Of a stretch of 47,165 nt of DNA, positions 38,364 through 46,946 are shown piece by piece. Positions within the stretch are counted from its first letter, which is position 1. The number at the start of each line of letters is the position of its first letter. Position numbers and translations under genes: made by a program. The notes beneath the pieces were generated by a model. The model was not told where the DNA came from and made no database searches. It was given only the letters and a program-made list of their open reading frames with translations. Source of the stretch: Candidatus Bathycorpusculum acetigenes (GTDB taxonomy: Archaea; Thermoproteota; Bathyarchaeia; Bathyarchaeales; Bathycorpusculaceae); NCBI GenBank assembly GCA_009781675.1, contig WQVG01000008.1:1-47165 (forward strand), given 5' to 3'.

Positions 38364-39665
38364 TTAGCAAAAGTCGCTCATGCTCCGTTGCTGTACCCGC
38401 GGCACAGATAGGGGTTTAGTTTTGATCATTGAAACATCAGCAACATCGAGTGTAAGTTGTCCATATACGCCGTCGTAGCCTGGGGTGACCTTTGCTGAGC
38501 CATCGCGTACTTTTATGATTGCCTGTGCAAAGGGGGCAGTTACCACTGAGATCATTTCTTCAAATGATGCATCCATAAGCACCGAATATTCGTCCCCGAA
38601 TTTCTCTATAAGGGCGTTGTAGGGTTTCCAGACGGCTTGGATCGCAGGGGAGTCGGTTCCGATGACAGCTGCGATGACTTCACTTAGAGGTAAGAGACGC
38701 TTAAAGCCAGGGGCATCGTTGCGTCTGTAGTCTGAGGGGCGATCGGCGAGCTCTTCTACACGTTGCTCGACTCCTTTGACGAGTTTTCGGCGGCAGATAG
38801 GGCAGATGTTACCGAATTTTATGGCTTCAGGTGGTGAGAGGCTGATTTTACAGTTGCGATGTCCGGTCCAGTGGTATTTGCCATAGGCTGGGTCGGTTTC
38901 GATGGTGAATTTGAAGCGTTCAGGGTCATTATCAGATATTGCGGAGGTCACATGGTTGTAGGTAAGGCTGGGGAGATCAAATACATTGGCTTCTCTGCCG
39001 ATGCGCCAAGGCCAAAAGCTGTGGCAGTCGCTGTTTGATATTAGGGCGTATTTGTCTAGACCACTTAAACGCCAGTTCATCGCTGGATCAGAGGACAAGC
39101 CGGTTTCGAGGGCGTGGATGTGTTTGGTCATGTCTTGATAGCAGTCCTCAACTGTGTTAAAGCCGCTAAAAGCGCCAAAAATGCTAAACCAAGGTGTCCA
39201 AGCGTGCGCGGGGAAGATCAGGTTATCTGTGCTGACAGCCATGACTTCTTCGACGAGCTGAGGCGCGGTGCAATCCAAGATGGGGCGACCATCGGAAGCT
39301 AAATTCCCAAAGGGCGTCAGCCGCTCATTAATTTGATCAGCTGTCTCTATGCTTGGGGTTAATATGACATGATGTATTTTTTTGGATTGCCCTTTGTAGT
39401 CAAAGATTGTACAGACTTCTGTTTGAAGCACAAAACACACAGGTGAATCGACACTGGCAAGCTTGAATAGACCTGTATCTGCTTGAGGGACAAGGGTTTC
39501 GCGGATTTCTTTTAGCCACAATGGATGAGTAAAGTCACCTGTACCCACCAAGTTGAGCCCTTTGATTTTTGCATACTTTGCTATTTCACATAGACTCATT
39601 TGTTCGCTGGTCGCGCGGCTGTATCGACCGTGAATATGAAGATCAGCAATTACTCGAATTAGCAA
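38364..39665 (-). CDS. Endonuclease Q (PHP-domain, deaminated-base endonuclease)
   Basis: Cuts DNA 5' of hypoxanthine, uracil and related lesions. The PHP domain shows ADLHIHGRYSRATSEQM, GLNLVGTGDFTHPLWL, FPAHAWTPWFSIFG and ISNSDCHSFWPWRIGRE, holding the metal-binding His and Asp residues. The zinc site follows: HRNCKISLSPPEAIKFG, then ICPICRRKL. At 433 residues it matches the EndoQ family. The C-terminus is QQRSMSDFC, close to the PCNA-binding Qxx(h)xx(a)(a) peptide; EndoQ of Thermococcales is known to bind PCNA. TTG 39665 follows an AGGGGA site. Confidence 0.9.
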   Translation of the reverse strand: MLIRVIADLHIHGRYSRATSEQMSLCEIAKYAKIKGLNLVGTGDFTHPLWLKEIRETLVPQADTGLFKLASVDSPVCFVLQTEVCTIFDYKGQSKKIHHVILTPSIETADQINERLTPFGNLASDGRPILDCTAPQLVEEVMAVSTDNLIFPAHAWTPWFSIFGAFSGFNTVEDCYQDMTKHIHALETGLSSDPAMNWRLSGLDKYALISNSDCHSFWPWRIGREANVFDLPSLTYNHVTSAISDNDPERFKFTIETDPAYGKYHWTGHRNCKISLSPPEAIKFGNICPICRRKLVKGVEQRVEELADRPSDYRRNDAPGFKRLLPLSEVIAAVIGTDSPAIQAVWKPYNALIEKFGDEYSVLMDASFEEMISVVTAPFAQAIIKVRDGSAKVTPGYDGVYGQLTLDVADVSMIKTKPLSVPRVQQRSMSDFC

Positions 39666-44460: not shown

Positions 44461-44535
44461 AGCGCGACAGACTAAGCCGAAATCTGGAATCAGGTCATAA
44501 AAACTAAGGCTATAACCAGAAATGGGTGCACATAT

Positions 44536-45111
44536 GTGAGTCGAGAAGCAGAATTGGTTGTGTTCACAATTGGGTATTCCACGCGGTCGCTTGAAGAAGT
44601 CATAGAGCTGCTTAAAATTTATGACATCACAGTGCTATCAGATATTCGTACGGTGCCTCAAAGCCGCTACAATACTCAATTCAACAAAGAAACTCTCTCA
44701 GAGAATCTCAAACGTAGCGGCATTAAATACCTTCATCTCCCCGGAGTCGGTGGTTTGCGTCATCCTAAACCCAACAGCATCAACCTTGCAGTTGAGGGGC
44801 AACTTCGCGGCTATGCCGACTACATGCAGACTAAAGAATTCACTGAGCAACTCCTAAAAATAATGGTACTAGCACAAGAAAACCGGTTAGTGTTGATGTG
44901 CGCAGAGGCGTTGCCCTATAAATGTCACCGGATACTAATCAGCGATGTGTTAACAGCACGACATGTGCGTGTACTACACATCATAAGCAAAGAGAATACA
45001 GTTACGCATAAAATTAACGAACTGGCACATGTGGATGGTGTGAGGGTATCTTATCCGCTCTATACTAAAGAGACACCCCAGAGAACACTTAGTGATTTCG
45101 GAACCACCTAA
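44536..45111 (+). CDS. DUF488-family protein with a PIP-like C-terminus
   Basis: A 191-residue DUF488 protein: VFTIGYSTRSLEEVIELL, VLSDIRTVPQSRYNTQFN, YLHLPGVGGLRHPKP and VLMCAEALPYKCHRILISDVL with the conserved CxE and CHR residues. The family is uncharacterised; conserved Cys, Glu and Arg residues suggest a nucleic-acid-related enzyme. The C-terminus ends PQRTLSDFGTT, a good match to the PCNA-interacting peptide (QxxLxxF). EndoQ in this window ends almost identically (QRSMSDF). GTG 44536 is the start. Confidence 0.9.
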   Translation: MSREAELVVFTIGYSTRSLEEVIELLKIYDITVLSDIRTVPQSRYNTQFNKETLSENLKRSGIKYLHLPGVGGLRHPKPNSINLAVEGQLRGYADYMQTKEFTEQLLKIMVLAQENRLVLMCAEALPYKCHRILISDVLTARHVRVLHIISKENTVTHKINELAHVDGVRVSYPLYTKETPQRTLSDFGTT

Positions 45112-45584: not shown

Positions 45585-46946
45585 TTATTGGTTATGTTGT
45601 GAAGTTTTTTGGAGTTTGGCTATGAAGAAGCCGTTACATTGGTGAATATGAGGGTAGAGTCGGCGGCATTCTGTTAGGCCGGCTAATCCGGGTGAACCGA
45701 ATTCGGGTGTAATCGGAGTTAGTTTAAAGTTAGGATGTTCTTTTAGGAATTGTTCCACTACACCTTCATTTTCTTCTATGGTTATGCTACAGGTGGAGTA
45801 TGTTAAGGTGCCGCCGGTTTTGACTTTTGGCACACAGTTGTTGATCAACTGTTGCTGAATTTTGCTCATATTGGCTATGGATTTTGGGCTCAGACGCCAT
45901 TTTGCTGAAGGTTGCTTGGCAAACACTCCGGAACTGGTACAGGGCGGGTCGAGAATCACCAAATCAGCTTCGCCTACAAATGGAATCGACATGCGGGCAT
46001 CTGCGACCAGCGGCTCTGCGATTTTGGCTTCCATTCGCTCAATTTCTTTCTGCCAGGTATGCATGCGTTTAGCCGAGAAATCCACTGAAATTATGTTTCC
46101 GTGGTTTTGCATGAGCTGGGCAAAAAAGGTTGTTTTTGCTCCAGGTGCTGCACAGACGTCAAAAACTGTGTTGTCAGGTGCTGGGTTTGCGGCTTGAACG
46201 GCAAAACAGCTGGCTTTATCTTGTACATAGAACAAACCGGATTTGAGGCTTGGAGAAGTGTTTAGGGGTGTTTTTTGTGCTATTACTTTATAGGTGTACC
46301 TTAGGGGTTGGACTTTTTCGAGTTTGATGTTTTCAGCTGTGAGTTTTTGGAGAATTTCTTCTTCGGGTGCCACTAGGGTGTTTATACGGATATAGGTGGG
46401 TGGTGGGGTGAGGCTGCCTTTGAGGAACGCGTCTGCTTCTTGGTTGCCAAAGAGGTTGATGCAGTACTCTACAAACCATGTTGGATGATAGGTTTCAAGG
46501 GCTATTTGCTCGGTTTTGTTGGTAGTTTCTATGATTGGTGCAAGTGGGCGGGTTAAGAGGAAACCCAAATGGGATTCGACTTCACGCATGGTTTGCCAGC
46601 CCAATATCGAGCGGCCTAGACTTGCGATGGATTGGGCTTCTTTGAGGGGGAGTTTGTCCCAGTTCTTGGCAACACGGGTTTGGTACACGTAGAGGCGTAG
46701 GAATGCCTGTAGGCCCTGAGTGTATTCGTCTGTTTTTTTAGGTGTGATTACGGTATTGATGAATTTGTCGATGAGGTTTTTGCGGCGGGTAGTTTCAACG
46801 ACGAGTCCGTATGCTAAGCGGATGGCTCCAGCGTCTTTTATGCCTAACTGTTTTGTGGTGCGCAACAGTGCTGAGCGTTCATTGAGCCGGCGTATCTCCA
46901 TCCAGCTCATGGTTTCGATTGCAATTGTCCAAGCTTCCCGTAGCAA
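45585..46946 (-). CDS. RsmB/NOL1/NOP2-type RNA m5C methyltransferase with NusB-like domain
   Basis: Methylates cytosine C5 in rRNA or tRNA using S-adenosylmethionine. The 453-residue protein has a NusB-like helical domain (residues 1-155, ALLRTTKQLGIKDAGAIRLA), a PUA-like/RNA-binding stretch with PPTYIRINTL, and the methyltransferase domain: VFDVCAAPGAKTTFFAQLM, ISVDFSAKRM, LVILDPPCTSSGVF with the release cysteine, and LTYSTCSITIEENEGVV with the catalytic cysteine. The start is TTG 46946; the frame is open upstream with a Cys-rich stretch but no standard start codon. Confidence 0.93.
   Translation of the reverse strand: MLREAWTIAIETMSWMEIRRLNERSALLRTTKQLGIKDAGAIRLAYGLVVETTRRKNLIDKFINTVITPKKTDEYTQGLQAFLRLYVYQTRVAKNWDKLPLKEAQSIASLGRSILGWQTMREVESHLGFLLTRPLAPIIETTNKTEQIALETYHPTWFVEYCINLFGNQEADAFLKGSLTPPPTYIRINTLVAPEEEILQKLTAENIKLEKVQPLRYTYKVIAQKTPLNTSPSLKSGLFYVQDKASCFAVQAANPAPDNTVFDVCAAPGAKTTFFAQLMQNHGNIISVDFSAKRMHTWQKEIERMEAKIAEPLVADARMSIPFVGEADLVILDPPCTSSGVFAKQPSAKWRLSPKSIANMSKIQQQLINNCVPKVKTGGTLTYSTCSITIEENEGVVEQFLKEHPNFKLTPITPEFGSPGLAGLTECRRLYPHIHQCNGFFIAKLQKTSQHNQ

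Follow-up and report, generated by a model that had tools for sequence, protein, structure and literature searches.

A PIP-like C-terminal box on a DUF488 protein in one clade of Bathyarchaeia, with a probable link to PCNA and to base-damage repair

Contig WQVG01000008.1 of Candidatus Bathycorpusculum acetigenes (47,165 nucleotides, all of which were analysed and are called the window here) encodes a DUF488 protein whose last residues resemble those of EndoQ, encoded in the same window. Does this resemblance mark a DUF488 member as a client of the sliding clamp PCNA, and in which process would such a protein act? DUF488 occurs widely among bacteria and archaea, and we found no tested function for it; a literature search likewise returned nothing joining DUF488 with PCNA or with glycosylases. 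The host genome (2.1 Mb, 140 contigs, 95% complete) carries a single DUF488 gene. We propose, with a probability of about 0.7 for the explanation as a whole, that a PIP box gained in one clade docks this protein onto PCNA, where it would serve as an enzyme in the repair of damaged bases.

The DUF488 protein and its C-terminal tail

The gene lies on the forward strand at positions 44536 to 45111, in a stop-to-stop frame of 44476 to 45111, and encodes a long-form protein of 191 aa with a GTG start. Its translation matched the Pfam model DUF488 (PF04343) from end to end (1-121/121; E=4e-27; 95.6 bits, with a curated cut-off of 22.2). The catalytic-like domain occupies positions 44587 to 44952 (+ strand) and was modelled by AF2 mostly with a pLDDT above 90. 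Across 38 homologues from archaea and bacteria, we observed invariance of D36, R38, S43, R44, H67, the stretch ADYMQTKEF, MC122xE124, C130-H131-R132 and D137. Since these residues are held so widely, the tailed proteins are presumably active enzymes. Both the alignment and the AF2 model place the invariant C122 after a strand. Searching the PDB by sequence revealed no relatives of DUF488, and a Foldseek search with the model gave no match at E<=0.001. The weak matches included PTP-fold phosphatases and precorrin methyltransferases (probability mostly 0.8-0.96, TM about 0.4), those to the PTP fold having a probability of 0.92-0.96 but E>0.03 and a TM of about 0.4. These PTP-fold matches agree with the placement of DUF488 in the rhodanese-phosphatase superfamily that Burroughs and Aravind reportedly made in 2023. 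Elsewhere, DUF488 is found fused to a ParB-CTPase fold with an HTH (PMC12704722).

The protein ends in KETPQRTLSDFGTT (a longer stretch of the same end reads VSYPLYTKETPQRTLSDFGTT), and positions 45073 to 45111 (+) encode T-P-Q-R-T-L-S-D-F-G-T-T followed by the stop codon. After the last strand of the fold comes a linker, PLYTKETP (45052 to 45078, +), and it is about here, at TYP, that tail-less homologues stop. The predicted PCNA-binding peptide, the PIP box Q-R-T-L-S-D-F, follows at positions 45079 to 45099 (+); its assignment draws on the pattern match, its invariance, its single gain and the AF2 model. The remaining G-T-T and stop (45100 to 45111, +) are variable, as the residues behind the F/Y differ in kind and number between species; in two tailed orthologues (...QRKLINF and ...QRTLLDY) the aromatic is itself the last residue.

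Taken alone, such an ending says little. The pattern Qxx[LIM]xx[FYW] was present within the last 20 residues of 3 of 216 other proteins from 14 loci (about 1.4%; 0.8% in shuffles), and because about 1% of C-termini match, one isolated QxxLxxF tail proves little. We thus relied on orthologues. A first survey of 30 loci (the window's own gene, 28 from the same genus and one from a second genus) found all of them tailed, and the later addition of further genera of the same family brought the total to 39 distinct tailed long-form sequences. Every one of the 39 long-form orthologues of the clade kept the motif, indicating that the tail of DUF488 is not a product of chance. Among 37 aligned tails, Q, R/K, L and F/Y were each present in 37/37 and D/E in 36/37. 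The codons of these invariant positions vary freely, the L being written with all six of its codons; the 'x' positions drift, with an entropy of 2.3 bits at the x position, and many different residues occur between L and D. The PIP positions are held while codons, the x position and the trailing residues vary, as is characteristic of a short linear motif under strong selection.

The second aromatic or hydrophobic residue of the textbook PIP consensus is not kept by every archaeal PIP. It is absent here, alignment position 181 being mostly G (26/35), and we therefore speak of a PIP-like box whose function as a PIP is very probable. The PL of the linker ahead of the motif is nearly invariant among the aligned orthologues. 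In the AF2 model, the last 20 residues have a pLDDT of 51-60, with a short helix at 185-188, in keeping with an unbound PIP peptide in a flexible terminus that can take up a 3-10 helix. A flexible, extreme C-terminal position after a linker is also what known PIPs have (PMC4929162). The first-pass annotation of this DNA had taken the tail to fit the archaeal PCNA-interacting peptide, and this reading is supported: orthologues retain the tail without exception, and the invariance falls exactly on the PIP-defining positions.

Distribution of the tail and other candidate clamp ligands

In a further step, the history of the tail was investigated with a tree built without the tail columns. One branch (SH-aLRT 99) separated all 39 tailed sequences from the remaining 70 long forms, which come from archaea and bacteria and all lack the tail. 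The tree thus points to a history that is one gain and no loss, in one clade of one Bathyarchaeia family. In Nitrososphaeria, Micrarchaeota, other families of Bathyarchaeia and bacteria, the long forms stop at TYP or shortly beyond it. Those of Nitrososphaeria, Micrarchaeota and bacteria share 40-50% identity with the tailed protein over 165-180 aa, together with the same invariant residues, but lack the PIP tail, and many of them adjoin a DNA glycosylase or MGMT gene. Accordingly, the initial idea of a clamp tail on an archaeal DUF488 holds within one Bathyarchaeia clade and fails as a general feature of archaeal DUF488 proteins.

Two genomes of the genus have, besides the tailed gene, a DUF488 copy without the tail, in each case on a small contig (about 3 kb). 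These copies group with foreign homologues in the tree and may be contamination or a recent transfer. In other genera of the family, short-form DUF488 proteins end in GQ[KRQVAT][SA][LI] (24 loci). Six short forms have a full QxxLxxF (e.g., QASILKF, QKALLNF, QTSLLKF and QVSLMKF) and others end early, most short-form ends being without the aromatic. The Q-S-L of the short forms may belong to the end of the domain, and these endings are perhaps an independent or decayed PIP.

The other candidate clamp ligand of the window is EndoQ, a protein of 433 aa encoded on the reverse strand at positions 38364 to 39665. It matched NCBIfam TIGR00375 at 3.6e-63, though under the cut-off of that model, and the solved EndoQ of P. 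furiosus at 2e-64; its identification from these matches holds. It ends in QQRSMSDFC, with a predicted PIP box, Q-R-S-M-S-D-F, at positions 38370 to 38390 (-) by pattern match, so that the similarity of the two C-termini noticed at the outset is confirmed. Reading EndoQ tails by script, we found them PIP-like in 28/28 cases, the residue pair at the aromatic being mostly FW or FC. In T. kodakarensis, the EndoQ PIP is QRSITEFL; its KD for PCNA is 55 nM, binding is lost on truncation, and the very C-terminus is the usual site of archaeal PIP boxes (PMC4858679). EndoQ and DUF488 of one genome thus carry nearly identical C-terminal boxes on unrelated folds. They differ in that the activity of EndoQ is known (it nicks 5' of deaminated bases) and in that its PIP is widespread in archaea, whereas that of DUF488 is confined to one clade.

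Three EndoQ proteins, from three Bathyarchaeia families, share an intein-like insertion, in frame and about 370-400 aa long, which lies at one common site (ETGLS/ETGMS | SDPPMNW), starts CYD.. and ends ..GN before S.

PCNA itself was found as one gene in each genome tested, the host included, and matched that of P. furiosus at E=1e-45. FEN1 and PolB were read in seven genomes of the host's family: FEN1 has the ending K[TVM][ST]LE[KR]WFG, and PolB has TRKLTDFF(SG), RRLTDFF, KSLMEYF or T[KR]L.[RS]F[LM]. These tails resemble that of DUF488 in position and in hydrophobic and aromatic pattern but are without the leading Q that DUF488 and EndoQ have. PolB proteins of the genus also show PIP-like N-termini (MARTLLDYC, MPQQSLDTYWG, MASTLDKWFSQ and MATLDRWFGQ among eight loci), and a PolB with such motifs at both ends would possibly make two clamp contacts. 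The first-pass annotation had suggested searching the genome for other proteins with the same ending. A DNA-pattern scan of the whole genome for QR[ST][LM]x(D/E..)F/Y, which covers one PIP sub-pattern, returned EndoQ and DUF488 as the only two sound C-terminal cases; because xAN is required at the sixth position, clients such as FEN1 are missed by it. Its other matches were set aside: one is a membrane protein with the ending QRSMYYY, the other a truncated AAA fragment where a contig ends. Among non-core archaeal PCNA clients, NucS, NreA/NreB and TIP offer a parallel, since they are lineage-restricted or poorly understood and their PIP, whether known or possible, is C-terminal in the case of NucS and NreA (PMC4929162). 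They have no homology to DUF488, which is a widespread enzyme-like family with tail-less bacterial relatives.

Gene neighbourhoods of tailed and tail-less DUF488

We then investigated the neighbours of DUF488. Among 84 proteins flanking tail-less homologues, picked by position only, a Pfam scan found UDG to be the commonest family (8/84), with HhH-GPD in 2/84. A UDG that reads as TDG/MUG-like by its GINP motif comes immediately after DUF488 in ten Nitrososphaeria loci, several of which belong to one species or to close ones, and immediately before it in three Micrarchaeota loci. It also lies behind DUF488 in a Dependentiae bacterium, at a distance of about 240 bp, and in another Bathyarchaeia family, at about 16 bp. 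As the two genes occur in opposite orders, their adjacency is not one frozen arrangement. In a Bacteriovoracaceae genome, a different UDG overlaps DUF488 convergently. AlkA-like HhH-GPD glycosylases were observed 15 bp upstream of DUF488 in one Nitrososphaeria genome and in tandem downstream of it in Phycisphaerales; in Acidithiobacillus an AlkA-like glycosylase lies near, one gene further on. MGMT-family genes adjoin DUF488 in Arthrobacter and Rhodococcus opacus, and Rhodococcus qingshengii has a UDG plus MGMT nearby. Of the bacterial plasmid loci viewed, only 4/15 have a repair neighbour, the remainder showing DUF2945, transketolase or unrelated genes. A repair neighbour is likewise missing from most of the divergent and short-form homologues in Nitrososphaeria.

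DUF2945 stands beside or near DUF488 in 7/15 of these plasmid loci, which often include pentose-phosphate genes (transketolase, phosphoglucomutase and gnd).

In the loci of the tailed clade, we found no glycosylase near DUF488, and a TDG-like UDG was found in 2 of 163 Bathyarchaeia and was absent from 161. The conserved neighbour in the genus is an RsmB/F-like methyltransferase (45585 to 46946, -), which lies between DUF488 and PolB. Among the genus loci read, seven show the order DUF488, RsmB-like gene (other strand), PolB, with PolB about 3-7 kb from DUF488. In the host, the PolB-bearing contig breaks off shortly beyond the start of that gene and the window contig shortly beyond RsmB; the same order therefore likely spans the contig gap.

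The tail of EndoQ in the window had been offered as a clue. The likeness of the tails stands, but a distance of 5-7 kb between EndoQ and DUF488 is kept in no more than five close species, the host included, so this closeness is weak evidence. Co-occurrence of EndoQ with tailed DUF488 is uninformative, because EndoQ is found almost throughout the class (139/163 genomes) and is hence not specific evidence.

Weighing of the explanations and significance

That the tail docks the DUF488 enzyme onto PCNA is, in our view, very likely. Could the resemblance to a PIP box be accidental? About 1% of C-termini carry QxxLxxF, but conservation in 39/39 orthologues despite free codon choice leaves chance with next to no probability. 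A conserved tail might instead serve a partner other than PCNA or pack on the DUF488 domain itself, and the near invariance of PL ahead of the motif would suit such a role. We give this little credence, since the invariance falls exactly on PIP positions, the tail of the AF2 monomer is predicted to be flexible and unpacked, and EndoQ has the same ending, through which Thermococcales EndoQ binds PCNA (PMC4858679).

The process served by the docked enzyme is a separate matter. It could bind PCNA and work at the replication fork rather than on base damage, in Okazaki or 3'-end processing or in nucleotide handling near PolB. The order DUF488-RsmB-PolB in seven genus members, with contig ends in the host compatible with the same order, is consistent with this, as are the Methanoperedens plasmids in which DUF488 lies beside RadC and a Dna2-like helicase in a replication/repair neighbourhood (PMC9674854). 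PolB is nevertheless outside the DUF488 operon, the intervening RsmB gene is on the opposite strand, the order is lost beyond the genus, and the glycosylase and MGMT neighbours of homologues favour base repair; we therefore consider a fork role unlikely. A place in an anti-phage or nucleic-acid-modification system, with the tail directing the protein to replicating DNA, appears decidedly improbable. Two PADLOC candidate models for phage defence, PDC-M45B (E 6.7e-34) and PDC-M19A (2e-23), match the DUF488 protein (44536 to 45108), and Burroughs and Aravind are said to have predicted, in 2023, that some members of DUF488's clade process DNA ends in conflict systems. These PADLOC models are unvalidated, however, and the gene is single-copy and near-constant on the chromosomes of the genus, with stable neighbours, unlike defence genes.

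We thus return to repair of damaged bases on the clamp. Because the clamp tail is joined by the frequent position of tail-less relatives beside base-damage repair genes, DUF488 is probably a DNA-repair enzyme, and action on damaged bases is the process that we favour, with less assurance than PCNA docking itself. A role in DNA repair or base handling had been suggested from the tail alone, and the glycosylase and MGMT neighbours of tail-less homologues lend it independent support. In the proposed mechanism, a PIP box that arose once in the Bathyarchaeia clade would tether to PCNA an enzyme with a Cys-containing, Rossmannoid, PTP/rhodanese-like domain. The enzyme would act on an intermediate left by a glycosylase or by EndoQ; this might be the deoxyribose-phosphate at an abasic site or at a nicked end. 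Tail-less relatives would be coupled to repair by an operon shared with a glycosylase or MGMT gene, and the tailed clade by the clamp, where EndoQ, FEN1 and PolB would also dock. A substrate in the form of the sugar-phosphate at abasic or nicked sites is a tentative suggestion that we hold to be rather unlikely. Only slightly less doubtful is the broader notion that long-form DUF488 proteins are so far overlooked enzymes of base-damage repair that work after glycosylases (TDG/MUG-like UDG, AlkA-like) and EndoQ, probably acting on abasic-site or sugar-phosphate ends, with PCNA tethering having replaced glycosylase operon coupling in Bathyarchaeia.

What appears new here is a PIP-like box on a further protein family, a candidate for the known class of PCNA clients, and DUF488 would join the short list of non-core archaeal clients. 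The more valuable part of the finding is a functional hint for a widespread family of unknown function. Together, the clamp tail and the glycosylase, AlkA-like and MGMT genes beside its relatives yield a specific, testable claim, namely that DUF488 may be a base-damage repair enzyme, and they offer a candidate substrate class: damaged, abasic or nicked DNA.
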